This document shows, piece by piece, positions 20,378 to 32,712 of a stretch of 64,000 nt of DNA. Both the position numbers and the translations under genes were made by a program. Source of the DNA: Candidatus Villigracilaceae bacterium. GTDB taxonomy: Bacteria > Chloroflexota > Anaerolineae > Anaerolineales > Villigracilaceae. The DNA lies in NCBI GenBank assembly GCA_026645935.1, contig JAPKMP010000018.1, positions 1 to 64,000 of the forward strand, written 5' to 3'. The notes below the pieces were generated by a model. It was not told the origin of the DNA, searched no databases, and saw only the letters and a list, made by a program, of their open reading frames with translations. The first letter of the stretch is position 1, and each line of letters opens with the position of its first letter.

Positions 20378-21656
20378 CCTATTCCCCGTCACGACTCGAA
20401 TCGATAACGAAACACTGACCATCGCCGGACAGAATCTCGCTTCTCTCGCGGACCGATATCAGACTCCCCTCTATGTGTACGACTCTGCGACCCTGAATAT
20501 TCTTGCCCAAACCTACGCTCGAGCCTTATCTGCCCATTACCCCGGCCTTTCCAACATCACTTATGCTGGAAAGGCGTTTTTATGCAAAGCGATTGCGCAG
20601 TGGACTCAAGTGCACGCATTGACGGTCGATTGCACCGGCGAGGGTGAGATCGGGATTGCCGTCGCTGCAGGCGTGCCGCGCGATAAGATTCTAGTGCACG
20701 GGGTTAATAAAACAATCTCAGACTTGAAAGCCGCCATTCAACATGCCGGCACTATCGTTGCAGATAATCTCAGTGAATTACATCGAATTATCAATTTACC
20801 AGCTGCCAATCTACCGACTCTCTGGCTCCGCCTGCTTCCCGGTGTTTCCGTCACAACCCATCATGTCCACACGCAGACAGGCCACTACGAAAGCAAGTTT
20901 GGGATGACGCGCGAAGAGATTCCCGAAGCGGCGGCGTTTTGTAAAGTACACGGCTTGCCAATGAACGGTATTCACTTCCATCAAGGCTCAAACTTCCGCG
21001 ACCCTGAGCCGTTGATTCCTGCGATTGAGATGGCGCTCGACCTTGCAAAAGAAACCGGCTTCAAAGATGAATGGCATTTTTGCCCCGGCGGCGGCTGGGG
21101 CGTGGCATATCATGAAGATGAATTGCCGCATCCATCCATCGAAAGTTATGTGCGTGGAATCTCTGAAGCGGTAATCGAGGGATGCAACTCCCGCGGCCTC
21201 GATCTCCCCCATCTACACCTTGAGCCGGGGCGCAGTCTCGTGGCGCGGGCGGGCGTGGCGATCTATCGCGTGGGTGCGGTTAAGGAACGCGGTCACAAAA
21301 CATGGTTACTGACCGACGGCGGCATGGCGGACAATCCGCGTTATGCGCTGTACGGGGCGAGATACTCCTGTTTGCCGGTAACAGGCGTCGGGTTGGAAAG
21401 AAGCGAGAACGTCTCCATCGCCGGACCGTATTGCGAGTCCGGGGATATCGTCATCGAAGACCTTCCCATGCCGAGAATCCAGGAAGGGGATTTGATCGCC
21501 ATCCCCATGAGCGGGGCGTATCAGTTGAGCATGTCGTCCAATTACAACGGCGCGCGCAAGCCGGCGGTGGTTTGGCTGGAAGAGGGAAATGTGAAATTAA
21601 TTCAAGACCGGGAAAGAGTCGAAGATTTACTGCGGCGCGATCTGACGCTCGGTTAA
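20364..21656 (+). CDS. lysA: Diaminopimelate decarboxylase
   Basis: A 430-residue fold type III PLP enzyme. The PLP lysine is Lys70 in TYAGKAFLC. Later motifs include GIHFHQGSNF, EPGRSLVARAG and the C-terminal YNGARKP, which supplies a substrate-binding Tyr. It converts meso-diaminopimelate to lysine. The internal ATG at 20364 is chosen because it matches the family N-terminus; it overlaps the GGDEF gene by 14 nt. The stop overlaps that of the convergent Crp-family gene. Confidence 0.9.
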   Translation: MNRLDLFPVTTRIDNETLTIAGQNLASLADRYQTPLYVYDSATLNILAQTYARALSAHYPGLSNITYAGKAFLCKAIAQWTQVHALTVDCTGEGEIGIAVAAGVPRDKILVHGVNKTISDLKAAIQHAGTIVADNLSELHRIINLPAANLPTLWLRLLPGVSVTTHHVHTQTGHYESKFGMTREEIPEAAAFCKVHGLPMNGIHFHQGSNFRDPEPLIPAIEMALDLAKETGFKDEWHFCPGGGWGVAYHEDELPHPSIESYVRGISEAVIEGCNSRGLDLPHLHLEPGRSLVARAGVAIYRVGAVKERGHKTWLLTDGGMADNPRYALYGARYSCLPVTGVGLERSENVSIAGPYCESGDIVIEDLPMPRIQEGDLIAIPMSGAYQLSMSSNYNGARKPAVVWLEEGNVKLIQDRERVEDLLRRDLTLG

Positions 21657-22330
21657 CCGCGTTCGACCATGCGCGCCAGGCCTTCGCGGTCGGTTAGCAC
21701 AAATTCGGTGCGGGTCACTTCAATTAATTTTTTGTCCGAAAAACTATAAAGAGCCCGGCAGACCATTTCACGAGTGGTGCCAATGTGCGCAGCAATATCG
21801 TCGAGCGTGAGATCGCGGGAAATGGCGGAATCACTGGCAGTATCGAAGTTATCCAGCAGGAAGCGTGCCAATCTACCCGCAACCGGCTGAAATGCCAGCC
21901 CCTCCAAAATTTCGCTGGCGCGCTGCATTCGTTCCGCCATTAGACGGCTGAGTTCCCATGAGGCTTGACCGTTGCGCAGCAGGAGAGGCAAGATGGCGTC
22001 CCGCGCCCACAGGTAGATTTGACTGTCCTCGCGCGCGCCAAGCGTGACGGGCATGGGGGCATTTTCGTGAAAAAAAGCCAGTCCCCAAAAAAGTTCGCCT
22101 GCAAGAAAAGAAACCACACGCAGGATGCGCCCCTCGCCAGATTCCTTTATTGCTTCGATCTCCCCGCTTTTCACCATGAAAAGATGCGGCCACACGTCGC
22201 CGTAGAGAATTATTTTTTCGCCTTTCAAATAGGAACGGACGCGAGCAAGTCGAACGGTTTCCTGTTGGTCAGAGGGGGATAATCCAGCAAGGACGGGATT
22301 CTTAACCAGGATTTCGGGAAGTTGTCTCAT
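21653..22330 (-). CDS. Crp/Fnr-family transcriptional regulator
   Basis: A 225-residue regulator with an N-terminal cyclic-nucleotide-like beta roll (about 20-110), a dimerisation helix and a C-terminal winged helix. The recognition helix reads TTREMVCRAL, giving R187-E188-x3-R192, the arrangement by which E. coli CRP reads TGTGA. It lacks the N-terminal cysteine cluster of Fnr, so it is not an Fnr-type Fe-S sensor, and the cAMP-binding motif is not obvious. It diverges from the FmdE-like lipoprotein gene; TGTGA-N6-TCACA-like sites lie in that shared spacer and before two downstream units, so it probably controls them. Confidence 0.88.
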   Translation of the reverse strand: MRQLPEILVKNPVLAGLSPSDQQETVRLARVRSYLKGEKIILYGDVWPHLFMVKSGEIEAIKESGEGRILRVVSFLAGELFWGLAFFHENAPMPVTLGAREDSQIYLWARDAILPLLLRNGQASWELSRLMAERMQRASEILEGLAFQPVAGRLARFLLDNFDTASDSAISRDLTLDDIAAHIGTTREMVCRALYSFSDKKLIEVTRTEFVLTDREGLARMVERG

Positions 22331-22365: not shown

Positions 22366-22381
22366 TTTGCGTTAAGGCAAA
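22366..22381. promoter_or_regulatory. Palindrome TTTGC-N6-GCAAA (copy 1)
   Basis: TTTGCGTTAAGGCAAA, an inverted repeat (5-6-5). The identical 16-mer occurs in inverted orientation at 24088-24103. In both cases a TGTGA-type palindrome follows after exactly 16 nt. Confidence 0.6.
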
Positions 22382-22397
22382 GACATTGTCACTTATT

Positions 22398-22413
22398 TGT
22401 TATAAATTTCACA
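22398..22413. promoter_or_regulatory. CRP-type operator upstream of the FmdE-like lipoprotein
   Basis: TGTTA-N6-TCACA, one base off the TGTGA-N6-TCACA palindrome. It lies in the spacer between the divergent regulator and the lipoprotein gene. A further half-site GTGACA follows at 22419. Confidence 0.6.
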
Positions 22414-22468
22414 TATACGTGACACAATATTGGCCACGAGTCAGACACATTCACATAAAGGAGAAGCA

Positions 22469-24010
22469 ATGAAAAGTTTATGTTTTACCTTCGCGGTGGC
22501 GATCATCGCCGCGCTTGTACTGGCGGCCTGCGCCCCTGCTCCCGCTCCAGCCACGGAAGCGGTCAGCGAGCCCGCGCCCGCCACCGAAGTCCTGACCCAA
22601 CCAGATGTGGTGGAAGAGCCATCGTCCACTGAAACTGCGGAACCTGCCTTGTGGACGCAGGATTACATCACGCAGGTGGAACCCATATGGATGATCGATC
22701 CGTATTTCCAAATCTTCGGGCAGTCGCAAGTGGCAGTTCCTTATTACTACGAGGAAGCTGCAAAACTGGCGGGGCATTCCTGCGGTGCGACCGCTGGCGC
22801 CTGGACGATCACCCGCAAGGCGCTCGAAGTTTTGTATCCCGATGGTGAAATCCCGGTGCGCGGACAGATCGCGGTGCAAACGCCCGGCGCTGAAGATGAA
22901 TGGTTCGTGGGCGTGTTCGGCGAGGTGATCACCTTCGTGACCGGCGCATCCCCGAAAACGGGTTTCATCGGCGCGGAGTTCGGGCAGACCAACGATCTCT
23001 TTGTGCGCCAGAACAAAATGGTTTACACCGACGAACCCACCGGGACGCCTCCCCCGCAGATGGAGTGGATCTTCACCCGCCTGGATACCGGCGCGAAAGT
23101 GGGCGTGAATTTCAATCTGGCGGTCATCACCCCCGTCGCAACCCCCGAGCGCCAGGAAATGGGTAAGAAAATGGCGGCAGGCACAGCCACTCCCGAGGAG
23201 GCGGCTGATTACTACGAGTATTGGAACGCCAGGGCGAAATTCGTCTTCGATAATGCGGATACGCTGGAGGGTTTCTTCAACGTCAAAGTCTACCAGGAAC
23301 CCACCGCCACCCCCGATGCGAGCATCGAAAAGGCTGCGCCCGCCTCAGTCGAGGAGTTTGCCTGGGAGCAGGCGTACATCACCGAGGTCCCGCCGATCAT
23401 GATGACGGAGCCGTACTTCGGCATCTTCGGACAGACGACGGGACCCGTCCCCTATTATTACGAGGAAGCCGTCAAACTGGCTGGACATTCCTGCGGCGCG
23501 ACCACGGGCGCGTGGATCATCACCAAGAAGGCGCTTGAAGTGCTGTATCCCGACGGGGAAATCCCGGTGCGCGGGCAGATCGCGGTGGAAGCCCCCGGCG
23601 CGGAAGATGAGTGGTTCGTCGGCGTGTTTGGCGAGATCATCACCTTCATCACCGGAGCATCGCCTCATACCGGTTTCATTGGCTCGGAATTCGGAACAGT
23701 GAACGATCTCTTCGTGCGCCAGAACAAGATGGTGTACAAGGACGAGCCAACGGGTCAACTCCCCCCGATGCGGGAATGGGTCTTCACCCGCCTGGATACC
23801 GGCACGAAAGTGGGCGTCAAATTCAACCTTGTGATCATCCTGCCAATCCCAACCCCTGCACGCACGGAGATGGGCAAGAAGATGGCGGCCGGCACAGCCA
23901 CGCCTGAAGAAGCGGCGGATTATCAGAAGTACTGGAACGACAGGGCAAAATTCGTCCTGGATAATGCCGATTTGGACGGTTTCTTTACAGTGACCGTTTA
24001 CGAAAAGTAA
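22469..24010 (+). CDS. Lipoprotein with two tandem FmdE-like domains
   Basis: A 513-residue exported lipoprotein: signal peptide with lipobox LAAC (Cys21), an Ala/Pro/Glu-rich linker, then two near-identical domains (about 60-290 and 297-513) offset by 237 residues. Each contains GHSCGAT (His103-Cys105 and His340-Cys342) followed by a helix and the IPVRGQIAV strand. This resembles the G-H-x-C-x-G-x-x-x-G motif of FmdE-family proteins, where His and Cys bind metal. The DNA of the two repeats is also very similar, pointing to recent duplication or gene conversion. AAAGGAG precedes ATG 22469. A strong terminator follows, so it is a single-gene unit under the Crp-like operator. Confidence 0.7.
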   Translation: MKSLCFTFAVAIIAALVLAACAPAPAPATEAVSEPAPATEVLTQPDVVEEPSSTETAEPALWTQDYITQVEPIWMIDPYFQIFGQSQVAVPYYYEEAAKLAGHSCGATAGAWTITRKALEVLYPDGEIPVRGQIAVQTPGAEDEWFVGVFGEVITFVTGASPKTGFIGAEFGQTNDLFVRQNKMVYTDEPTGTPPPQMEWIFTRLDTGAKVGVNFNLAVITPVATPERQEMGKKMAAGTATPEEAADYYEYWNARAKFVFDNADTLEGFFNVKVYQEPTATPDASIEKAAPASVEEFAWEQAYITEVPPIMMTEPYFGIFGQTTGPVPYYYEEAVKLAGHSCGATTGAWIITKKALEVLYPDGEIPVRGQIAVEAPGAEDEWFVGVFGEIITFITGASPHTGFIGSEFGTVNDLFVRQNKMVYKDEPTGQLPPMREWVFTRLDTGTKVGVKFNLVIILPIPTPARTEMGKKMAAGTATPEEAADYQKYWNDRAKFVLDNADLDGFFTVTVYEK

Positions 24011-24032
24011 GGTGGATAAACCCCGATGCAAG

Positions 24033-24075
24033 AAAAAAAGACAGGCAACTCCGAGAAAGTTGCCTGTCTTTTTTT
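24033..24075. terminator. Strong bidirectional terminator after the lipoprotein
   Basis: The arms AGACAGGCAACT and AGTTGCCTGTCT pair perfectly around a 7-nt loop, flanked by runs of A and T. Confidence 0.92.
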
Positions 24076-24087
24076 CTCCTGGCTGCG

Positions 24088-24103
24088 TTTGCCTTAACGC
24101 AAA
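24088..24103. promoter_or_regulatory. Palindrome TTTGC-N6-GCAAA (copy 2, inverted)
   Basis: TTTGCCTTAACGCAAA, the exact reverse complement of the element at 22366-22381. It is followed after 16 nt by a perfect TGTGA-N6-TCACA palindrome, repeating the arrangement upstream of the lipoprotein. Confidence 0.6.
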
Positions 24104-24119
24104 GAAGTTAAATATATAT

Positions 24120-24135
24120 TGTGATATATTTCACA
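24120..24135. promoter_or_regulatory. CRP-type operator upstream of the membrane-protein operon
   Basis: TGTGA-TATATT-TCACA, a perfect match to the Crp-family palindrome, 31 nt before the ATG at 24167. Confidence 0.75.
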
Positions 24136-24166
24136 TGTAAATCGAGCTATCCATAAGGAGGATGCC

Positions 24167-25012
24167 ATGAAGGACACATCTCAGAACCACCGTCTGATAC
24201 TGGCGATATTGGCGGTCGTCGTCGGCTTGTTCATGGTCGCAGTTGCGCCCTTCCTGATCCAAACGTCATTGGAGCGGGTCGTTGCGGCATTGCAGATTGT
24301 TTCGGCGGAAAAGCCAGCTTATGCCAGCGGAATTCTGATCTTTTCCTACGCTTTTCCACTCTATCGGGGATTGATCTTCATCGGCGGGATCGCCCTTCTC
24401 TGGCTCGCCGGTCCGATCCATCGCGGGGAGGAGTGGTCGTTTCCAGCCGGGTTATTGGCGTCGGCTTTTCCATCCGCAGGCGGAATGTTCATGATGATGC
24501 CCTATGTTTCCTTTGTGGATGGTTTTCCCCTTCCAACAGCGGTCTCAATTGTAGGGCTGATCTTCTTCTGGTCGTTCATCCTGCTGCGCAAAGTGGATAA
24601 ATGGTTGAAATGGGGTCAATTTCTGGCACTGACCTTTGCAGGGATGCTGACCACACATGCATTCATCGTTGGAACCGGCAATCTGCGCACGCTGTTGACG
24701 CGTCCCGGAAAGCCCATGTACGATGGATTGGGAACCTGGGTGCTGGCATGGTCGCAGCCGATCCAATGGATTTGCGTGATATTACTGTTCGTTGCCATCT
24801 TCCAAATCGCTGCCCGCAAATTCTCCGGCTGGTGGCTGGCATTGATCTCGGTGACATCTCTCGTGGCAATTGACGTTCCAATGCAGATTATCCGCCTCAC
24901 CATGACAGACTCCACCGCTTGGGATTACACCTATGGCATGCCGGTCATCATCGGGTTGTTATTTGTCCTGCTCTTCCCAAAATTCAAGCAGGCGTTGATT
25001 GCCGAAGAGTAG
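24167..25012 (+). CDS. Polytopic membrane protein of unknown function (first gene of putative respiratory block)
   Basis: A 281-residue protein with about seven or eight membrane helices and no recognised catalytic motif. The start is secured by AAGGAGGATGCC before ATG 24167. A segment around residues 108-135 (MMPYVSFVDGFPLPT) resembles FFPAIPAMDSHLPTP in the protein at 26063, so the two are probably distant paralogs. It follows a perfect Crp-type operator. Its neighbours (Fe-S ferredoxin, 12-TM His-rich protein, heme-O-synthase-like enzyme) suggest a role in a membrane redox complex, but nothing in its own sequence proves this. Confidence 0.7.
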   Translation: MKDTSQNHRLILAILAVVVGLFMVAVAPFLIQTSLERVVAALQIVSAEKPAYASGILIFSYAFPLYRGLIFIGGIALLWLAGPIHRGEEWSFPAGLLASAFPSAGGMFMMMPYVSFVDGFPLPTAVSIVGLIFFWSFILLRKVDKWLKWGQFLALTFAGMLTTHAFIVGTGNLRTLLTRPGKPMYDGLGTWVLAWSQPIQWICVILLFVAIFQIAARKFSGWWLALISVTSLVAIDVPMQIIRLTMTDSTAWDYTYGMPVIIGLLFVLLFPKFKQALIAEE

Positions 25013-25032
25013 TTCGGCACATTCTCCTTACG

Positions 25033-25062
25033 CCCTCGCCCCTAATAAAATTGGGGCGAGGG
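25033..25062. repeat. Perfect 10-bp stem-loop
   Basis: CCCTCGCCCC and GGGGCGAGGG flank an AT-rich 10-nt loop, in the spacer between the 24167 gene and the small ORF. There is no T-run after it on the plus strand, so it is more likely an mRNA-stabilising or repeat-derived hairpin than a terminator. Confidence 0.6.
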
Positions 25063-25071
25063 TCAAACGCA

Positions 25072-25233
25072 ATGAAAATTCATCCTCGCTATTACCCCGC
25101 CATCATCATCACTGCATATGTGATTTTCCTATTGATTGGCATCCTGCTTGGCTTTGGACCTGAGCGCGGCGGCGCTGGTCATGGAAGAAGCGCGTTGATG
25201 CAATTCACCGCAGCGTTGGAGGGGCTGACATGA
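25072..25233 (+). CDS. Small single-pass membrane protein (53 residues)
   Basis: A 53-residue ORF beginning MKIHPRYYPAI, with one strong membrane helix (about 9-27) and a short Gly-rich hydrophilic tail. It overlaps the next gene by the ATGA junction, which argues that it is really translated and coupled to the ferredoxin. It resembles in size the tiny accessory subunits of respiratory complexes, but no family is recognised. No good Shine-Dalgarno is seen; the hairpin at 25033-25062 is immediately upstream. Confidence 0.55.
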   Translation: MKIHPRYYPAIIITAYVIFLLIGILLGFGPERGGAGHGRSALMQFTAALEGLT

Positions 25234-26066
25234 CCGCTGTCAAGCCTTTCTCGCTCGCCAAAAGCCGCCGCACAATTCAATGGATGGTGGTCATTGGCAC
25301 TCTGGTCATTGGACTGCGACATATCATGCCCGGCGAAGCCTCACGCGGCGGCTCGTTCGATTCGTTCTGCGCCTTTGGTGGGATCGAAACCATCTTGCCT
25401 TTTCTTTTCACCGGGCACACGCTCAAATCCACCAACCTGCTCAATTTTTCGGTTCAGCTCGGGACGTTGGGTGTCTCTCTTGTCGCAGGACGCGCCTTCT
25501 GCGGCTGGCTGTGCGGATTGGGCGCAATCCAGGATTTCATCACACAATGGACACGGAAATTTATTGGAGAGAAGCGACACATCCGCGGCAGGCAAAGCAC
25601 AGCCATTTTTCCCCTGCGCCTGCCCTCCATCCTAGATCATCCGCTGCGCTACGCAAAATATCTGGTGCTGACAGTGGTTTTGATCGCCAGTCTCTTTATG
25701 GCATTCCCGCCACTGCGTGATTTTTGCCCCGTGCGTGCCGTGTTCGGTCTCCATATGACTGCGTTGCTGTGGGTAACACTCGCAGTCTTTCTGGCAGGTT
25801 CGGTTTTAGTGGAACGCTTCTGGTGCAAATATCTCTGTCCGCTTGGCGCGACGCTTGCCATCTTCAACAAACTATCTCCTGTGCGTCTCGTCCTGGACAA
25901 TCATCACTGCAACGGCTGCGGACGTTGCGACATCGAATGTTCGATGGGCATCGCCGACGTGCCGCATCACCTCGACCATCCCGAATGTGTGCGGTGTATG
26001 GAATGTCTCAACACCTGCGCGGTGAACGGTTCACTTATTTTGATATATGAAAAGGAGAAAAAATGA
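25230..26066 (+). CDS. NapH/NosR-type membrane polyferredoxin (4Fe-4S)
   Basis: A 278-residue protein with four or five membrane helices. Cysteine pairs at 91/95 (FCGWLCG) and 199/203 (WCKYLCPLG) mark the cytoplasmic ends typical of the NapH/NosR/CcoG group. Two C-terminal 4Fe-4S motifs follow: C227-x2-C230-x2-C233-x3-C237 and C253-x2-C256-x2-C259-x3-C263. Such proteins pass electrons between the quinol pool and periplasmic or membrane reductases. It is coupled by ATGA overlaps to both neighbours (25072 and 26063), so it belongs to the same complex or pathway as those. Confidence 0.88.
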   Translation: MTAVKPFSLAKSRRTIQWMVVIGTLVIGLRHIMPGEASRGGSFDSFCAFGGIETILPFLFTGHTLKSTNLLNFSVQLGTLGVSLVAGRAFCGWLCGLGAIQDFITQWTRKFIGEKRHIRGRQSTAIFPLRLPSILDHPLRYAKYLVLTVVLIASLFMAFPPLRDFCPVRAVFGLHMTALLWVTLAVFLAGSVLVERFWCKYLCPLGATLAIFNKLSPVRLVLDNHHCNGCGRCDIECSMGIADVPHHLDHPECVRCMECLNTCAVNGSLILIYEKEKK

Positions 26067-26860
26067 AGAACAACCATAAGCTCGGAGCCGCGCTTGCCGT
26101 CCTCGGCATTGTGGCGGGGTTGCTGGCTTTCTTTTTGATCGCCAGCCAATACAACCAGGTGATCAGCGTGAAACTTGCCACCGACCGCATGGACGAAGCC
26201 TGGTCGGTGCGTATCACCTACGCCGTCCTCGGCTGGATCGGAACCGCCTCCACCGCGATTTGGGCGGCGGTGCTTTACGGCTTTCTGCAAAAAAAGGAGT
26301 GGGCTTGGTTCTGGGGCGCGGTCGCGGCGACCATTCAATTGCTGGTGGGTTTCTTCCCAGCCATCCCTGCCATGGACAGCCACCTGCCCACCCCCACCTT
26401 GATCGTCTTTGCGCTGGGCGGTATCCTGTGGTTTGGTATGCTCTTCATCGGCGGCGTGAACGGGAAAATTATCACACTCACTTTCATTGCAGGCCTTGCG
26501 TATGTGTTGACGTTCATTGATGGCGTTGCGCCAATCGCCAAATTCACCACCTCGCGCGATAATCCCTTTTGGAACGGGATGTACGTGATGACCCAGCAGG
26601 TCAGTTGGTGGGGCGCGGCGGCGTGGGCGATCTTCATCTTTGCAGTTTTGAGGAAGAGAGCATGGGCGATTCCCGTCGGTATTTTCGCGGGGACGATGTC
26701 CATGTTGGCGGGATATCCATTGGGCTTGTACAACGCATTGGTGGAAGTACATCGCTTCTCAATGTTCCTGCCTGCGCCTCTCTTTGGCACGGGGCTGTTG
26801 ATCTACCTATTACTGCCATCCACGCGGAAGATGCTCGAGGAATGGAATGCCACTGCGTAA
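26063..26860 (+). CDS. Polytopic membrane protein of unknown function
   Basis: A 265-residue protein with about seven membrane helices and no cofactor motif that I recognise. The ATG overlaps the stop of the polyferredoxin gene and has AAAGGAG upstream. Its region FFPAIPAMDSHLPTP resembles part of the protein at 24167, suggesting an old duplication within the operon. It ends the first transcription unit; a 186-nt spacer with two operator-like palindromes follows. Confidence 0.7.
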   Translation: MKNNHKLGAALAVLGIVAGLLAFFLIASQYNQVISVKLATDRMDEAWSVRITYAVLGWIGTASTAIWAAVLYGFLQKKEWAWFWGAVAATIQLLVGFFPAIPAMDSHLPTPTLIVFALGGILWFGMLFIGGVNGKIITLTFIAGLAYVLTFIDGVAPIAKFTTSRDNPFWNGMYVMTQQVSWWGAAAWAIFIFAVLRKRAWAIPVGIFAGTMSMLAGYPLGLYNALVEVHRFSMFLPAPLFGTGLLIYLLLPSTRKMLEEWNATA

Positions 26861-26966
26861 CCGGTTCGAGCGTGGAATCAGATCGAGGGATCAGCGAACA
26901 GGTATGGTCGTGTCTGGAAGCGATTTGTCTCGGAGCAGAATGAAGGAATTGCACACATCAGGTATT

Positions 26967-26982
26967 TGTGACATAAGTCACA
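26967..26982. promoter_or_regulatory. CRP-type operator (site 1) upstream of 27047
   Basis: TGTGA-CATAAG-TCACA; with flanking bases TTGTGACATAAGTCACAG, so the inverted repeat extends to TGTGAC-N4-GTCACA. The flanks recall HcpR-type sites of other bacteria. Confidence 0.75.
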
Positions 26983-26999
26983 GTATTTTAGATAATATT

Positions 27000-27015
27000 T
27001 GTGCAATAATTCACA
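27000..27015. promoter_or_regulatory. CRP-type operator (site 2) upstream of 27047
   Basis: TGTGC-AATAAT-TCACA within TTGTGCAATAATTCACAA, a TTGTG-N8-CACAA palindrome. Its centre is 33 bp from site 1, three helical turns, so both could be bound on one face of the DNA. Confidence 0.6.
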
Positions 27016-27046
27016 AGAAGGACAATTTCATAATAAGGAGAATGCC

Positions 27047-27646
27047 ATGAAAGACATCATCTTCCTTCTGCTCACCGGCGTGATCGCCGCGTACCTGTGC
27101 TGGTATTTTTATCAGCGCTACCAGTTGCACAAAGCACTGCATAACCTGTACTACTTGATGGGTTTTGCGGTGCTTTTGGTTTCTGGATTGCTGCTCATCT
27201 TTCTCGGGATGGGAATCCTCGCCTCGCCCTACGTCCTGACAGTTGCCAGTCTGATCCCGTTGGGTATTTCCATGGGGCTGGCTGAGGAATACTTTCCCGC
27301 CTGGAAGAGGGCATTCAAATGGTTTGCCGCACTTGGATTCCTTGCGATCGCTGTAACAAGCATTGGCGGGATGGATAATCTTCGGAAGATCGCGGTTCCG
27401 CTTTTTCACGGTATCGCTGGCCTTGTGATCTTCATCGGTCCATTCATTGCAAAAGGCGCGCCAAAAGGGTTTTGGTGGGTCGGCATCGGCGGATTGTTGA
27501 TCGGGCTTGGCGGCATCGCGCTCGCTTTCATAACAATGGGCAGACAACTGCTATTCTTCAGCCCCGAGTTCGTCATGCTCATCATCACTCCCCTGCTATT
27601 CCTGATGACAGGGGCATATGCGCTGGGCTTCGCCAAGAAAGGATAA
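27047..27646 (+). CDS. Polytopic membrane protein, paralog of 31305
   Basis: A 199-residue protein with six or seven membrane helices. The segment HGIAGLVIFIGPFI and the later GIGGLLIGLGGIAL closely match HGIAGMTIFLLPII and GVGGALIGIGGLFL in the protein at 31305, so the two are paralogs flanking the 12-TM gene. The His of HGIAG is the only candidate ligand. AAGGAG sits before ATG 27047. It leads the transcription unit behind the tandem operators. Function is unknown. Confidence 0.7.
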   Translation: MKDIIFLLLTGVIAAYLCWYFYQRYQLHKALHNLYYLMGFAVLLVSGLLLIFLGMGILASPYVLTVASLIPLGISMGLAEEYFPAWKRAFKWFAALGFLAIAVTSIGGMDNLRKIAVPLFHGIAGLVIFIGPFIAKGAPKGFWWVGIGGLLIGLGGIALAFITMGRQLLFFSPEFVMLIITPLLFLMTGAYALGFAKKG

Positions 27647-27663
27647 AAGTCCCCCATTCCCTA

Positions 27664-27711
27664 CCCTTCCCCATCAAGGGAAGGGAGCCCCTCTCCCATG
27701 TTGGAGAGGGG
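27664..27711. repeat. Two adjacent stem-loops
   Basis: CCCTTCCC/GGGAAGGG (27664-27685) and CCCCTCTCC/GGAGAGGGG (27688-27711), followed by GTGGGGTGAGGGCG. This is a dispersed-repeat style spacer, reading on into the ribosome site of the next gene. Confidence 0.6.
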
Positions 27712-27738
27712 TGGGGTGAGGGCGTTTGGAGGCTATTC

Positions 27739-29274
27739 ATGCAGTTTATGAAAACACGATTCAACTATCTCTTCGGTTCGACAAAAGGGTTGACGCTGAT
27801 CGCCATTGCGGTGGTTTCGCTCATCACTGCCATCTTCGGTACGCTTTCAGGACCGATGGTGGAATGGGGCATCCGCGATGTGGTCGTGCGCCTGTTGAAA
27901 ATGGAATTGATACCGGCGGCGCGCGAAGGTCGCATCATCATGTTGTATCACACCATCGCCATGACCATCGTCGCCATCGAAGTGTATTTCATCACTGAAC
28001 TCGTCCCGATGAAGCGCCATGAGCAGACGATGATCAATGCCACGATCACCGTTGGTTATTTGATTTCGGTCGTCTTCGGCATGGCATTCGCTTACTGGGG
28101 GCGCAATTTCGCCTTTCATGGCTTGTTCCTTCTTGGGCAGTCGCTGGTGTTCTTTGCGGGCATCCTGCTTGCGGTGGCGCTCGTACCGTGGAAAAAAGAA
28201 TACCGCCTGCCCGCGGACTCTCTCCTCGCCCGCACAAAAAGCGGACTTGACCTGGAGCGTGTTGCTTTCTTTGTTATGGCAGTATCCACCCTGCTTTCCG
28301 CCGCGTTCGGCGCGGTCTCAGGTTCGTACTGGAGCAACGGTCACGAAACCTTCCTCGCCGAAGACCTGATCCGTAACCCGTTCAAGACTTATCTGCAAAA
28401 AGCCATCATCGGTCACCTCCACATCATGCTGACCCTGATCGCCATCGCCATCACGCTCATCGTCGGGCGCTGGCTGAACTTCAAAGGCATCCTGCATCGC
28501 ATCGCCATGCCGCTGATGATCTCAGGAACGGTCATCATCACTGCAGGCGCGCTCTCGGTGGTGTGGGTGGAAGCGGCACATACCATCATCTACGTCGGCT
28601 CAGTCTTCGTGATGCTGTCGGCGCTGTTCTTCGTCATCTATTCGTGGGGCATGCTCATCCGCGAAGGCACGGCGGGCATCGAAAAGCCGACTTTCGGGCA
28701 GAAGATCAAAGCATTGCTCCGCGACCCGATCAAGTTCGGTCCAGGCTGGCAAATGGTCTTCATGAATTTCACCGTCAGCGGGGTGGGCATCTTCATGGCG
28801 GTCAAACTGACCGAAATCTTCCGCGTCTGGCCCCATCGTGAGGAGCGCATCATCCTGACGGGACACTGGCACATCCTCGCCAGCCTGATCGCCACCATCA
28901 TCCTGTTCTACATCGCCGATCTTTCGGGGCTGAAGGGCAAAATCCGCAAATGGTTCGGCTGGACGATCATCATCATGTCCAACATTGCCTTCGCTTCCGT
29001 GACCATTTTCTCGATGAAGCGTCTGTTCGTCACCGAAGCCGAGCAGCAAAACGTCGTCAACTGGACGATGCTGCTGACCGACATCGGTCTGGCGACGGTG
29101 CTGCTCGTGTTGGCGATCTTCATGGTCTGGCGTTTGCTCGACCTGTTCAAGGCAAAAGGCTGGTGGACGCAGGAATACAAATCGGAGATCAAGAGGTCGG
29201 CGGAAATCGAGATCGAGGAGCAGAAACGCAAACTCAAGGAACTCGAAGAAACTCTCAAGGAGGTGGAGAAATGA
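27739..29274 (+). CDS. 12-TM multi-histidine membrane protein, heme-copper-oxidase-like layout
   Basis: A 511-residue protein with twelve predicted membrane helices and a charged C-terminal coiled coil. Intramembrane histidines are His71 (helix 2, LYHTIAM), His226/His228 (helix 6, GHLHIML), His281 (start of helix 8, EAAHTI) and His376/His378 (helix 10, GHWHIL). In heme-copper oxidase subunit I, a 12-helix pseudo-threefold protein, helices II, VI and X carry heme and CuB ligands and helix X has His-x-His. The paired His of helix VII is missing, so this is not a standard oxidase or NorB. GGAGG precedes ATG 27739, and the stop overlaps the SUMF1 gene (ATGA). Function is inferred only from layout and neighbours. 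Confidence 0.6.
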   Translation: MQFMKTRFNYLFGSTKGLTLIAIAVVSLITAIFGTLSGPMVEWGIRDVVVRLLKMELIPAAREGRIIMLYHTIAMTIVAIEVYFITELVPMKRHEQTMINATITVGYLISVVFGMAFAYWGRNFAFHGLFLLGQSLVFFAGILLAVALVPWKKEYRLPADSLLARTKSGLDLERVAFFVMAVSTLLSAAFGAVSGSYWSNGHETFLAEDLIRNPFKTYLQKAIIGHLHIMLTLIAIAITLIVGRWLNFKGILHRIAMPLMISGTVIITAGALSVVWVEAAHTIIYVGSVFVMLSALFFVIYSWGMLIREGTAGIEKPTFGQKIKALLRDPIKFGPGWQMVFMNFTVSGVGIFMAVKLTEIFRVWPHREERIILTGHWHILASLIATIILFYIADLSGLKGKIRKWFGWTIIIMSNIAFASVTIFSMKRLFVTEAEQQNVVNWTMLLTDIGLATVLLVLAIFMVWRLLDLFKAKGWWTQEYKSEIKRSAEIEIEEQKRKLKELEETLKEVEK

Positions 29275-30296
29275 AACGGATCATCATGTCGCTGCGAGCA
29301 GTTTTCGCGAAGCAGCCCCCTTCTTCAAACGGGAGGTTTCTTCGGGCTATCGCCCTCGCAACGACATTAATTCTGATCGCATCCTGCGCCCCTGCCCCAA
29401 GTGTTGCCGCAATCACGCCTCCTTACATTGACACGGGAATTGATCACGAATCCTGGGCTTTGATCCCCGCTGGAAGTTTCCCTTACGGACAGCATGATCA
29501 CATCACGGACGTGGATTACGACTACGAAATGATGGTCACGCCGGTCACCAACGAGCAGTTCGGCCGCTTCCTGAACGAAGCGTTGGCGGCAGGCGCGATC
29601 CGCGTCGGCGAGGTGGAGGTCGAGACTGGCGAGCAGGTTTGGGTGGAGGTCGGAGCGCATGGCTTTTATCCGGGCGATCCTTATGACGGGTACAAGCACG
29701 AAGAGGAGATCAAGCCCGGCGACAAACTCTTCTTCCCCACCGAAGCGGATGGGGTGCGCATCACGTTCGATGGTCAGATCTTCCGCGCGATCCACGAATA
29801 CAGCAACCACCCCGCCACGATGGTGACCTGGTTCGGTGCGAAAGCCTATTGTGAGTTCTACGGCTGGCGTCTGCCAAGCGAGATCGAATGGGAAAAAGCC
29901 GCACGCGGCACAGAGTTGGTGGATGGGCGCGGACTAGCCTTCCCGTGGGGCACACACATCGAGCGCAACAACGCCAACTATTATTCGTCGTTCGACCTGT
30001 TCGTGAAGATGTTCGGCAAACTGGGCAACACCACGCCTATCGGTTTTTACAACGGCAAGACATACACACTTGCGGAGGGCAGTTACACAACGCTGGATTC
30101 CGCTTCGCCCTACGGACTGTATGACATGGCAGGCAACGTCTGGCAGTGGACGGGCGACGACTATCCCAAACAGCATTACCGTCACATGCGCGGCGGAAGT
30201 TTTTACTCGTACGAAGTGGACCTGCGCGTGTGGAAGTTCAACAGCGCGGGACCCCAGCACTACAGTCCGCAGGTTGGGTTCCGTTGTGCGCGGTGA
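29271..30296 (+). CDS. SUMF1/formylglycine-generating-enzyme-domain lipoprotein (NirV-like)
   Basis: A 341-residue exported lipoprotein (lipobox ASC, Cys39) with a C-terminal FGE-sulfatase/SUMF1 domain. Hallmarks are LPSEIEWEKAARG, GLYDMAGNVWQWTGD, MRGGSF and the final VGFRCAR. Members include formylglycine-generating enzymes and NirV, a protein of unknown function next to nitrite reductase genes in denitrifiers. It is coupled by ATGA overlap to the 12-TM gene, so it is likely an exported partner. Residues 6-32, within the signal peptide region, are encoded by an inverted-repeat element. Confidence 0.85.
   Translation: MKRIIMSLRAVFAKQPPSSNGRFLRAIALATTLILIASCAPAPSVAAITPPYIDTGIDHESWALIPAGSFPYGQHDHITDVDYDYEMMVTPVTNEQFGRFLNEALAAGAIRVGEVEVETGEQVWVEVGAHGFYPGDPYDGYKHEEEIKPGDKLFFPTEADGVRITFDGQIFRAIHEYSNHPATMVTWFGAKAYCEFYGWRLPSEIEWEKAARGTELVDGRGLAFPWGTHIERNNANYYSSFDLFVKMFGKLGNTTPIGFYNGKTYTLAEGSYTTLDSASPYGLYDMAGNVWQWTGDDYPKQHYRHMRGGSFYSYEVDLRVWKFNSAGPQHYSPQVGFRCAR
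29286..29366. repeat. Inverted-repeat element inside the SUMF1 coding region
   Basis: The left arm starts ATGTCGCTGCGAG and the reverse complement of the right arm starts ATGTCGTTGCGAGG; both go on with GC-rich CGAAG-containing sequence. The 81-bp element is the same family as 37245-37336 (ATGTCATTGCGAG). It is in frame and supplies part of the signal peptide. Confidence 0.65.
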
Positions 30297-30300
30297 AGAA

Positions 30301-30332
30301 GCAAACAAGTAGACAGGCAAACAAGTAGACAG
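30301..30332 (+). repeat. Tandem 16-bp direct repeat
   Basis: GCAAACAAGTAGACAG occurs twice head to tail. A partly complementary copy (TAGACAGGTA read in reverse) occurs at about 30385-30400, so the whole 30301-30400 spacer can fold on itself. Confidence 0.7.
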
Positions 30333-30413
30333 GTATACTTGCCGCCTGAGATCACTACCCTGTTTCCTTGTTTACTAGTTTACTTGTGTACCTGTCTACA
30401 TTAGGAGTAATCA

Positions 30414-31304
30414 ATGACCACCATCGCCGCTCAATCGCAAATCGTAAATCTGAAATCGAAAATCAGAGCCTACTGGGCATTGATCAAACCCCTGCAATCG
30501 GGTTTGCTGCTTGCAACAGGATTGGCTGGCTACATGAGCGCGCGTTGTCCCGTGTTTAACATGGGAACCATCCTGCAGCTCTCAGCAAATTTGTTTCTCG
30601 CCATCGCGGGAAGCACCGTCCTCAACATGTGGTGGGACCGCGACATCGACGCCAAGATGGGACGCACGGAAAAACGAGCCACATCGAAGGGACTGGTGGA
30701 GGAAAACGAAGTCCTGCGCGTGGGCTTGATCCTCTCGGTCATCGGCGTCGGCTGGGCGGTGGCGATGGACGCGCTGTACGGTCTCATCGTCTTCGCAGGT
30801 CTGTTCTTCGACGTGGTCGTGTACAGCATATGGCTCAAACGCCGCACCGCGTGGAGCATCGTCTGGGGCGGCATTTCGGGTGCGATGCCCATTCTCGCGG
30901 GGCGTGCGCTCGGTCTCGGCTACATTGACTGGGTCGGCGTCACCCTCGCGTTCGGCATCCTCTTTTGGATCCCGACCCACACGCTCACTTTCAGCATGAA
31001 ATTCGCCAAAGATTATGAAGCCGCTTGTGTCCCGACCTTCCCATCCACGTATGGTCTTGCCATCACCCGCGCCACTATTGCAATCTCATCCATACTTGCC
31101 GCGGCTTCCATGATTGTCGCAGGGTATGGCATCGGCATGGCCTGGGGTTTCCTGCGACTGCTCGGCGTTTTATCTGCGGGTTTGCTCATGCTGGCGGTCG
31201 CCATCACCTTCAAACCATCCGAACGCGTCAACTTCGGTTTGTTCAAGTATGCATCCATTTACATGCTTGCCGCGATGATCCTGGTTGTGCTGGAAGTCAT
31301 CTAA
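30414..31304 (+). CDS. UbiA-type prenyltransferase, heme O synthase (CtaB)-like
   Basis: A 296-residue polytopic UbiA enzyme. The first Asp-rich site is N71-x3-D75-x3-D79 (NMWWDRDIDAKMGRT), typical of heme O synthases, and the following VYSIWLKRRT matches their Y-T-x-x-L-K-R-x-T motif. The usual PHFW-like segment is replaced by PTHTLTFSMKFAKDY, a divergence. Heme O synthase farnesylates heme b for oxidases. TAGGAG precedes ATG 30414. The first 20 residues are encoded by A/T-rich near-repetitive DNA. Location next to the 12-TM His-rich gene suggests it supplies that protein's heme, which is inference. Confidence 0.75.
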   Translation: MTTIAAQSQIVNLKSKIRAYWALIKPLQSGLLLATGLAGYMSARCPVFNMGTILQLSANLFLAIAGSTVLNMWWDRDIDAKMGRTEKRATSKGLVEENEVLRVGLILSVIGVGWAVAMDALYGLIVFAGLFFDVVVYSIWLKRRTAWSIVWGGISGAMPILAGRALGLGYIDWVGVTLAFGILFWIPTHTLTFSMKFAKDYEAACVPTFPSTYGLAITRATIAISSILAAASMIVAGYGIGMAWGFLRLLGVLSAGLLMLAVAITFKPSERVNFGLFKYASIYMLAAMILVVLEVI

Positions 31305-31910
31305 ATGAGGTTTTCTTCCCTTGACCGCGTCCTTCTGTTGCTCACTGTCCTGCTGGCATCCTATCAAGTTTCGGCAGGCATAGATGGGTTTGGGACTCTC
31401 CCCATCGTCGCCTATACCATCGCCTTCGGCGTGATTCTCGTCGCGGCGCTGCTTATTTTTATTTTGGGGATGGAGGTGCTGGACTCTCCCGTGGTCATCA
31501 TCGTCTCTACGATCATTCCACTGAGCCTTGCTGTCGGTCTCGTCTGGCAGCACCTCGCCTCCCTGCGGACCTCGTACCTGGTCTTCGCCATTATCGGTTT
31601 CCTTGCTGTGACTCTAACCCGCACGATTCAGATACCCGGAAAGTCCCCCACCTTTGTCCTTGCCATCACCCACGGCATCGCGGGTATGACGATATTTTTA
31701 CTGCCCATCATTCTTTCCATCCAGGGAGCGGTGAAGCCGCTCTTCTCTCTTGTGGGAGTCGGCGGCGCGTTGATCGGTATTGGCGGCTTGTTTCTTTCGT
31801 TTTTGAAGACCGGCAAACCCATCCTGTCGAGAGGGATGATCATGAGGTTGTTTCCAATGTTGCTCCTGCTGACAACAGCCCTTTTTGTAGCAGGTTTCAA
31901 ATTCGGCTAA
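31305..31910 (+). CDS. Polytopic membrane protein, paralog of 27047
   Basis: A 201-residue protein with about seven membrane helices. Shared blocks with the 27047 product are HGIAGMTIFLLPII and GVGGALIGIGGLFLSFL, plus the same helix spacing. The ATG directly follows the stop of the CtaB-like gene. A terminator hairpin follows. No catalytic motif is recognised. Confidence 0.7.
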   Translation: MRFSSLDRVLLLLTVLLASYQVSAGIDGFGTLPIVAYTIAFGVILVAALLIFILGMEVLDSPVVIIVSTIIPLSLAVGLVWQHLASLRTSYLVFAIIGFLAVTLTRTIQIPGKSPTFVLAITHGIAGMTIFLLPIILSIQGAVKPLFSLVGVGGALIGIGGLFLSFLKTGKPILSRGMIMRLFPMLLLLTTALFVAGFKFG

Positions 31911-31913
31911 TCC

Positions 31914-31945
31914 GTAGCGCAGGTCTGAGACTTGCGCTACTTTTT
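31914..31945 (+). terminator. Intrinsic terminator
   Basis: GTAGCGCAGGTC and GACTTGCGCTAC (one G-U pair) enclose a 3-nt loop and are followed by TTTTT. It ends or attenuates the operon before the gene at 31964. Confidence 0.85.
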
Positions 31946-31963
31946 CTATAAAAGGAGAAAACA

Positions 31964-32653
31964 ATGTCCACAAATAGTTTCTTTGCCAGGTTCCTGCGAT
32001 TCATCGGCATCGTGCTGATGGGCTTGACGGGTGGCTTCACCCTGCTGGGTGGAATCGGCACTTCCTGCGCTGCATTCAATCCCATTGGATTCGGCGACAG
32101 CATGGCCTTGCTCGCGCCGTTCCAATGGCTCTACATTCTGTTCGTTTTGGTCGGGGTGGTTCTTGGCATCATGGGCATCCGTGCCACAATCATGCTCGTG
32201 AGAGGCTCGGACAAGTCCTACCGATATGCGCTCATCGTGTTGATCGCAGGCGTTGTCATCGGCTTCATCCACATTTTCGCCTCGCGTGCCTTGCGCGGCA
32301 AGTCCATGCCGGTGGATGCAGTGGTGTACACCACGCTTCTAACTCTGGTGATCTTCCTGCTCTTCAAGGTACCGACGATCTGGCAGGGTGTCGATTTTGC
32401 GAAAGCCAAAACCAGCCAGAACAAACCGGCAGGCGGCGCGGCGGCGATCCTGCTGGGAATCATGACCCTCACCATCCAATTCACAATGGGAACAACGCAC
32501 ACCTGGGGCGGGATCAATTATGCGGACGCTTTCAACGCGTCCATGACTGTGATCGGGATCGGATTACTATTGCTGGGGGTGGGAATCTTCGTCAGCATGG
32601 CGAAGGCTTGGGAGAAAGGATACAGGCTTGAGTTAAAGAACCGAGCCGCGTAA
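31964..32653 (+). CDS. Polytopic membrane protein of unknown function
   Basis: A 229-residue protein with about six membrane helices and a cytoplasmic basic tail. AAAGGAG precedes ATG 31964. It has no motif I recognise; His-containing HIFASR and THTW are the only polar features in the helices. Lying after the terminator at 31914-31945, it may be a partly independent gene of the same block. A second terminator follows it. Confidence 0.65.
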   Translation: MSTNSFFARFLRFIGIVLMGLTGGFTLLGGIGTSCAAFNPIGFGDSMALLAPFQWLYILFVLVGVVLGIMGIRATIMLVRGSDKSYRYALIVLIAGVVIGFIHIFASRALRGKSMPVDAVVYTTLLTLVIFLLFKVPTIWQGVDFAKAKTSQNKPAGGAAAILLGIMTLTIQFTMGTTHTWGGINYADAFNASMTVIGIGLLLLGVGIFVSMAKAWEKGYRLELKNRAA

Positions 32654-32673: not shown

Positions 32674-32712
32674 GAAACGACATCCCCGTCTTCATGGCGG
32701 GGATGTCGTTTC
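32674..32712. terminator. Bidirectional terminator
   Basis: GAAACGACATCCCCG pairs with CGGGGATGTCGTTTC around a 9-nt loop, followed by TATTTTT. It marks the end of the putative respiratory block and the 3' end of the convergent gene at 32712. Confidence 0.85.

Follow-up and report, generated by a model that had tools for sequence, protein, structure and literature searches.

Background

The heme-copper oxidases, and the nitric oxide (NO) reductases related to them, are the closest described systems to a putative respiratory gene module located in a 64,000 bp stretch of DNA from a Candidatus Villigracilaceae bacterium (contig JAPKMP010000018.1; G000:C9:1-64000), which is referred to here as the window. 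The module comprises eleven plus-strand genes between positions 22,469 and 32,653, and the product of principal concern is TM12, a membrane protein of 511 amino acids (aa) (27739..29274, +). In known members of the superfamily, the second and tenth transmembrane helices (TM2 and TM10) carry the ligands of the low-spin heme, and TM6, TM7 and TM10 provide those of the metal and the high-spin heme (PMC10256718). According to PMC8756737, the NO reductase families (cNOR/qNOR, eNOR, sNOR and gNOR) carry Glu, Gln, Asn or Asp in TM6.

TM12 resembles CcoN, which is subunit I of cbb3 oxidase, as well as subunit I of the ba3, aa3 and bo3 oxidases, in its predicted 12-helix fold, and in the presence of His in TM2 and TM6 and of an HxH motif in TM10. 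It differs from all of these in its low identity (approximately 9%), in lacking a match to the Pfam COX1 model, in having one rather than two His at TM7/8, in the absence of the TM6 Tyr, and in possessing an additional His in both TM4 and TM6; moreover, it has no in-line gene for cytochrome c or a CuA subunit, and is accompanied by a SUMF1-type lipoprotein instead. The predicted fold is shared with the NO reductases also, and use of quinol by TM12 as a single subunit would resemble qNOR; however, none of the TM6 residues (Glu, Gln, Asn, Asp) that PMC8756737 gives for these families is present. The Asn285 of two distant TM12 relatives recalls the Asn of sNOR, but is found on a different helix. 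No description of the TM12 family was recognised in searches of the open-licence PubMed Central (PMC) literature, and the family is nameless; the main text of PMC8756737, which concerns alternative NO reductases in Chloroflexi, contains no reference to SUMF1, formylglycine, CtaB or heme o synthase.

The module is best explained as a quinol-fed, heme-O membrane reductase of a small gas, in which TM12 would be catalytic and NO a more likely substrate than O2. A probability of roughly 0.4 was given to this reading, which rests, by calculation, on a conserved gene set, a predicted fold, invariant histidines and common Crp-type boxes.

Predicted fold of TM12

TM12 matched no model in Pfam or NCBIfam. 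Comparison with PDB sequences produced one match at the level of chance (E = 0.7), and a profile search of PDB chains stayed empty up to E = 10. An AlphaFold model was obtained from 35 homologs (predicted local distance difference test score (pLDDT) = 78.8; predicted template modelling score = 0.83) and compared with PDB structures. Using Foldseek, heme-copper oxidases occupied ranks 1–11 (E = 8.7e-4 to 0.095, with one value below 0.001), and the first unrelated match was at rank 12, with a probability of 0.25. Using VIA-align, each of the 50 listed entries (Z = 18.7–23.6) was an oxidase, an NO reductase or a complex containing an oxidase; the best was cbb3 (Z = 23.6 over 403 residues), and cNOR scored 20.6. 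The alignment to CcoN was nearly full-length and in order, with residues 12–490 of the model falling on residues 12–475 of CcoN. TM12 is predicted, on the strength of this model, to have the 12-helix fold of heme-copper oxidase subunit I. A threefold internal repeat was also considered and rejected; repeats 2 and 3 matched each other (E = 3.3e-7), but one of 40 block-permuted controls was equal to this, repeat 1 was not significant with either, and the argument depended mainly on the GHxH motif.

Seven histidines (H71, H127, H226, H228, H281, H376 and H378) were invariant in 13 of 13 aligned sequences, down to 38% identity. H71 is located in TM2, and H376 and H378 in TM10, which are the helices that match those of the heme ligands when compared by helix and order. 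TM6 contains both H226 and H228, while the single His at TM7/8, H281, is preceded by an invariant Ala280. By helix and order, H71, H228, H281, H376 and H378 would fit the ligand places of the superfamily; this mapping is an inference, the model being of low confidence immediately ahead of TM10. Subunit I of the oxidases has a threefold arrangement with pores, and on this basis H226 and H127 may face the pore that known oxidases leave empty. The motif H281-xxx-Y285 was invariant in a 35-row alignment of the main clade; the two distant relatives (L034 and L035) retain all seven histidines and have Asn at position 285, where that clade has Tyr. Y285 belongs to TM8, and no invariant Tyr was found in TM6 or TM7 of TM12, which are the helices that supply the Tyr cross-linked to a CuB His in oxygen reductases (TM6 in types A and B, TM7 in type C). 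Similarly, the active-site Glu of TM6 in cNOR and qNOR was not found, and the residues four positions beyond the TM6 histidines are Thr232 (from H228) and Met230 (from H226), rather than Tyr or Glu.

Conservation of the gene module

TM12 was present in 17 of 400 Chloroflexota genomes; a profile search gave 18, the addition being a weak match of 66 residues. A scan of a named genome collection recovered 35 loci, using six peptide patterns that detect close relatives only, and is not a census. TM12 also occurred in seven of 40 Calditrichota genomes, one of these being a fragment, which supports the Calditrichota label, and the module was found in Ignavibacteriota metagenome-assembled genomes (MAGs). 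The labels of TM12 loci included Melioribacteraceae, Calditrichota, Chlorobiota, Aminicenantes and Spirochaetales (63–72% identity), MAG labels being uncertain, and the nearest relatives of the window copy among named genomes were Anaerolineales MAGs. The Spirochaetales copy (L056), which had CtaB, TM201 and TM229 on the opposite strand, was placed inside a supported and otherwise Chloroflexota group; this is either transfer or mis-binning.

Among loci with sufficient room, the SUMF1 gene was found in 39 of 41, CtaB in 37, TM201 in 35 and TM229 in 29; the remaining genes were recorded less often (of 33 loci, TM200 in 19, TM265 in 18, TM281 in 15, NapH in 11 and FmdE in five). SUMF1 lay directly 3' of TM12 in 44 of 46 loci; in the other two, L034 and L035, which belong to the distant relatives, none of the other core genes was kept. 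Five Calditrichota loci, one of which repeats L059, retained TM12, SUMF1 and CtaB in unchanged order, and the Chlorobiota locus (L060) had TM200 and no match to TM201. Given these counts and the order retained in Calditrichota, the core of the module is TM12, SUMF1, CtaB and TM201, while the polyferredoxin and the FmdE lipoprotein are accessory. A reading of the window made previously from its letters and open reading frames (the sequence-only reading) had proposed conserved neighbourhood as a check of the module; in several phyla, linkage was borne out for the 12-TM, SUMF1, CtaB and 7-TM genes; the polyferredoxin and FmdE genes were each absent from most loci with room.

Two further kinds of protein recurred near TM12. 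An outer-membrane porin of FadL/TodX type was observed in the module of Ignavibacteriota (L057:10147-11352) and Calditrichota (L166:14469-15647), with DUF423 and small membrane proteins recurring near it; no such porin was seen among gene clusters common to Chloroflexota loci. Membrane proteins of approximately 400 aa were observed at L032:1101-2324, L037:5928-7106, L047:6907-8127 and L050:5647-6873. The upstream protein of L047 (approximately 410 aa) showed weak matches to NnrS (E = 1.7e-4, under the cut-off) and COX1 (E = 0.0065), and this type of protein is perhaps another unrecognised relative.

Heme O synthase

The CtaB-like protein (30414..31304, +) scored 212.8 bits against TIGR01473, just above the cut-off of 210.3, while some of its orthologs scored just below. 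It contains the conserved DxDID, WLKRxT and WIPTH motifs, in common with CtaB/CyoE heme O synthases, which agrees with the heme-O-synthase-like enzyme recognised in the sequence-only reading. Unlike a typical CtaB/CyoE, it is a second and lower-scoring copy beside a 322-bit CtaB in the same genome (G000; 4.33 Mb, completeness 98.7%).

Oxidase content was compared between 27 genomes carrying TM12 (G000, 16 genomes from the 400-genome Chloroflexota set and the genomes of 10 loci hand-picked from the 35 named loci) and 11 non-carriers of the same genus or family, taken from the 400-genome set. COX1 was present above the Pfam cut-off in 20 of 27 carriers and 11 of 11 non-carriers (p = 0.08). The seven carriers without it were G072, G367, G403, G404, G405, G406 and G407, of which G406 had one sub-threshold match. 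In all seven, the operon copy was the only CtaB match above 50 bits (reading across one stop in G367), which is the strongest reason to think that CtaB of the operon likely serves TM12, which would therefore use heme O.

The notion that an operon-type CtaB always denotes TM12 was examined and found to be wrong. Of ten CtaB loci examined, L141 was the L057 operon, and the other nine were without TM12. Four of these, in TM12-negative genomes, had no other module genes (L135, L137, L138 and L139), and two had TM201 (L136 and L140). L142 was a second CtaB-TM201-TM229 set in G377, where TM12 has its own CtaB; L143 was approximately 156 kb from TM12 in G046, where the TM12 locus (L029) shows no CtaB; and L144, with 43% identity, came from G192, the genome of a distant TM12 relative. 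A pyridoxal phosphate (PLP)-dependent decarboxylase gene adjoined CtaB in L135, L137 and L143, with no TM12 at that spot, the order in L143 being recG-coaD-div-CtaB-decarboxylase, with the rest of the module missing. The window module is likewise flanked on the left, beyond the Crp/Fnr-family regulator gene, by a PLP-dependent decarboxylase gene (20,361-21,656), and on the right by genes that we take to be DivIVA-like, CoaD and RecG, the DivIVA-like product having no Pfam match. In relatives, this one chromosomal spot, from decarboxylase to div-coaD-recG, contained the full module, a shortened module, CtaB-TM201-TM229 or CtaB alone; it looks as though the module has been gained and lost around CtaB.

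Electron donor and SUMF1 lipoprotein

Neither a CuA subunit nor a c-type cytochrome was encoded among the module genes of the window, and the sequence-only reading was correct in stating that CuA was missing. When 49 loci (window included) were scanned within 9 kb for CXXCH and CuA motifs, no co-directional c-type cytochrome or CuA was found; short plus-strand matches were readings of the Crp box, as far as these were checked by eye. Multiheme cytochromes in the scan were on the opposite strand only (L028, L061, L064 and L069). A further one was situated approximately 7.3 kb after TM12 in L166. Because there was no in-line CuA or c-type cytochrome, quinol is the likely electron donor of TM12, and the NapH-like protein may feed electrons where it is present.

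The SUMF1 lipoprotein (29271..30296, +; PF03781, 121.8 bits) overlaps the TM12 stop codon. The formylglycine-generating enzyme (FGE), with which it shares its domain, has an active-site Cys pair that binds Cu(I). Across 45 rows, the only Cys conserved in at least 93% were that of the lipobox and that of a GFRC motif, and so the Cys pair of copper FGE was not found. The fixed place of this gene right after TM12 suggests that the lipoprotein is a subunit.

Operators and gene layout

The sequence-only reading had described about ten genes, held together by shared operators, ATGA overlaps and paralog pairs, and each of these elements was recovered here. The palindrome TTTGCSTTAAVGCAAA occurred at two places in the 64 kb, as TTTGCGTTAAGGCAAA (16 bp, 22366..22381) and TTTGCCTTAACGCAAA (16 bp, 24088..24103), giving four matches over both strands where 0.02 were expected. 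The Crp-type box TGTGA-N6-TCACA, with up to one mismatch, occurred at six sites in the window, against an expectation of 1.6. Four of the six preceded FmdE, TM281 and TM200, both exact copies included: 22398..22413 (with one mismatch, 71 bp 5' of the FmdE start), 24120..24135 (exact, 47 bp before TM281), 26967..26982 (exact, before TM200) and 27000..27015 (one mismatch, also before TM200). The box was found 47–48 bp before TM281 in L021, L039, L043 and L065 also. The exact copy before TM200 overlaps a promoter-like match at 26,968-26,996, of a kind that was about equally common in shuffled sequence.

Among 48 homologous loci, 55 of 78 Crp-type boxes (up to one mismatch) fell within the 8.2% of bases immediately 5' of module genes (binomial p = 8e-42, a value inflated because the loci are related). 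At least one box was present in 28 of 40 main-clade Chloroflexota loci, and none in the six loci labelled as other phyla or the two distant-relative loci; a TetR-type regulator was found 5' of TM12 in four of those six other-phylum loci (Pfam-confirmed for one). In 19 of the 33 loci with sufficient room, a match to any member of the Crp family (E up to 1e-4) was situated no more than 8.5 kb from TM12. In the window, a Crp/Fnr-family regulator gene (21653..22330, -; PF13545 and PF00027 above cut-off) is divergent from the module. Judged by the boxes, the window module likely forms three units: FmdE; TM281-small-NapH-TM265; and TM200-TM12-SUMF-CtaB-TM201-TM229.

The first unit is the FmdE-like lipoprotein (22469..24010, +), which has an internal duplication giving two tandem domain copies and a lipobox that was read in the sequence; its match to PF02663, the type of domain named in the sequence-only reading, falls just under the cut-off (20.6 versus 22.9 bits). 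A hairpin and T run 3' of this gene (24040-24077) was read by eye, being missing from a scan restricted to loops of 3–8. The second unit begins with TM281 (24167..25012, +), an accessory 281-aa membrane protein that matched no Pfam or NCBIfam family and is distantly related to proteins encoded in Ignavibacteriota and Calditrichota loci. It is followed by a small membrane protein of 53 aa (25072..25233, +), which adjoins NapH in several loci, and by the polyferredoxin (25230..26066, +). The latter had been called NapH-like; it is indeed NapH/MauN-like (PF12801, 62 bits), and far under the curated NapH cut-offs (TIGR02163, 82.9 versus 213.05 bits; 75 versus 234 bits for the other). TM265 (26063..26860, +), a 265-aa membrane protein, completes the unit and again had no Pfam or NCBIfam match. 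ATGA overlaps join small to NapH at 25,230, NapH to TM265 at 26,063 and TM12 to SUMF at 29,271.

In the third unit, TM200 (27047..27646, +) and TM201 (31305..31910, +) are a pair of membrane protein paralogs with 34% identity and a common invariant His (H123 in TM201), and the stop of CtaB adjoins the start of TM201 (31,304/31,305). TM201 is a predicted 7-helix protein (AlphaFold pLDDT 93.5); a search with its fold was uninformative, the matches (best Z = 13.9) being rhodopsins and 7-helix receptors of a generic kind. The last gene, TM229 (31964..32653, +), encodes a membrane protein with no Pfam match above cut-off, and is followed by a terminator-like hairpin (32674..32712, +) with a 17-pair stem and T run; terminator-like sites numbered 25 in the region, against 12.8 in shuffled sequence.

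Evidence for the substrate

In favour of NO, the gene of the distant relative in L034 comes directly after those of a DUF438-hemerythrin-PAS protein and a protein like flavorubredoxin (NF008887, E = 3.8e-69, under the cut-off). That in L035 is preceded, at a distance of 0.1–0.15 kb, by a COX1 whose sequence has Asp aligned to the TM6 CuB His, and both relatives have Asn at position 285. This COX1 protein (L035:10816-12444) is the sole COX1 match of its genome, and is possibly an unusual NO reductase. Weaker links to NO included the sub-threshold NnrS match among the four upstream proteins of approximately 410 aa (one of four, L047), and NrfA-type cytochromes 4–9 kb upstream, on the opposite strand, in two of 48 loci. 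These two (L061:4833-6662 and L069:1114-2974; PF02335, 490 bits) are divergent from the module and belong to Promineifilum MAGs; by Pfam, that of L061 has a partner of NapC/NirT type (NrfH-type). Four carriers (G403, G404, G406 and G407) had neither COX1 above the cut-off nor cytochrome bd. The sequence-only reading had suggested an NO/nitrite-type or other terminal reductase. The predicted fold of TM12, which that reading could not know, is that of terminal reductases; co-occurrence of NirS and NirK gives no support to NO as the substrate. NO is tentatively taken as the leading candidate and is somewhat favoured over O2; something other than either is nearly as likely as NO. Another contig of the same genome (G000:C11:89470-125605) combines a bd oxidase, a canonical COX1, NirS and NirK, and is likely a separate denitrification or respiration region.

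Interpretation

In the mechanism proposed, TM12 would be the catalytic subunit of a membrane reductase and would share its fold with subunit I of the heme-copper oxidases. H71 (TM2) and H378 (TM10) would hold the low-spin heme and H376 (TM10) the high-spin heme; H228 (TM6) and H281, at the start of TM8 and near the site of the CuB His pair in oxidases, would hold the partner metal, while H226 and H127 would line the otherwise empty pore and may bind a third cofactor. Heme O would be supplied by the operon CtaB. Electrons would probably come straight from quinol, with help from the NapH-like protein in some lineages, and the SUMF1 lipoprotein would replace the extracytoplasmic subunit. The small gas reduced would be most likely NO and less likely O2, in detoxification or in respiration.

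Several observations weigh against this interpretation. TM12 had no match to PF00115 (COX1) at E up to 1, nor did its distant relatives (L034 and L035) match that model, and hhalign of TM12 with 28 COX1 proteins gave no meaningful alignment (probability 4%). The pLDDT was below 50 at residues 196–212 and 351–375, the latter adjoining the TM10 histidines. The three-His set of CuB or FeB (one in TM6, two in TM7) was incomplete, with one of the paired TM7 His missing, and no Tyr, Glu, Gln, Asp or Asn was found at the usual place in TM6. Membership of TM12 in the heme-copper oxidase superfamily is not justified yet, because the COX1 match, the three metal His and the Tyr or Glu were sought and not found; the fold is supported by the model, and a like function is probable. 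Completeness figures applied only to G072 (99%) and G367 (94%), and the oxidase gaps of G403-G407 may be MAG gaps. CtaB, with or without TM201 and TM229, persisted without TM12 in some oxidase-bearing relatives. The FadL/TodX-type porin of the Ignavibacteriota and Calditrichota operons is not needed by a gas reductase. NirS was found in eight of 27 carriers and none of 11 non-carriers (p = 0.08), NirK in 12 of 27 and seven of 11, and one or the other in 15 of 27 and seven of 11. Flavodiiron and hemerythrin proteins also handle O2. The seven intergenic stretches scanned contained no Fnr-type site (TTGAT-N4-ATCAA, up to two mismatches); with boxes of Crp type and no site of Fnr type, control by oxygen or NO is not supported.

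The alternative that survives best, and one that is nonetheless unlikely, is that TM12 is an oxygen reductase or scavenger, in which the work of the cross-linked Tyr of known oxidases would fall to Y285, a single turn of the helix away from H281. The invariance of H281-xxx-Y285 in the main clade accords with this, as does the association of CtaB with O2-reducing oxidases, and in the four carriers without COX1 above the cut-off or bd, TM12 would be the sole oxidase-like protein of these kinds. However, Y285 is replaced by Asn in both distant relatives with all seven His kept, TM6 and TM7 have no invariant Tyr, and 20 of 27 carriers already possess COX1.

Slightly less probable again is a role for TM12 as a heme-binding protein of electron transfer or protection, comparable to NnrS, which is a multi-pass protein tied to heme and NO and has been proposed as a heme-binding protective protein. 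The electrons would then be received by the SUMF1 lipoprotein or by a substrate other than a gas, perhaps a hydrophobic compound that enters by the FadL-type porin. The incomplete ligands of the binuclear site, the two extra His, the SUMF1 protein without a conserved Cys pair, and the operons of Ignavibacteriota and Calditrichota, which have a TetR regulator and a FadL/TodX porin (L057 and L166), are consistent with such a role; yet the fold and the pattern of TM2 and TM10 ligands are those of terminal reductases, and the Chloroflexota loci, which showed no such porin among their common gene clusters, rely on Crp boxes instead. TM12 itself had no match to the NnrS model (PF05940) at E up to 1. 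It is very improbable that the module serves to assemble or mature the cell's ordinary heme-copper oxidases, in spite of CtaB normally being an oxidase maturation enzyme and COX1 occurring in 20 of 27 carriers, because seven carriers (including G072, at 99% completeness) have no COX1 above the cut-off and all 11 TM12-negative relatives have COX1, so that ordinary oxidases manage without the module.

A quinol-fed, heme-O gas reductase thus remained the preferred reading of the module. A stronger form of it, which is doubtful at present, is that TM12 is the founder of a new and deeply divergent class of heme-copper oxidase: an NO (or O2) reductase fed by quinol and using heme O, with an altered binuclear site, a further His-lined cofactor site in the pore that stands empty in known members, and an extracytoplasmic lipoprotein subunit of SUMF1 fold, distributed among several largely uncultured phyla and unseen by the usual sequence models. 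Surveys of respiration and of sources of NO and N2O depend on sequence models of COX1, NorB and bd, and the COX1 model is blind to TM12. If the reading is true, an oxidase-fold TM12 would change the breathing or detoxification predicted for genomes that appear to be free of terminal oxidases, and would provide a very distant branch from which to study the origin of the binuclear site.

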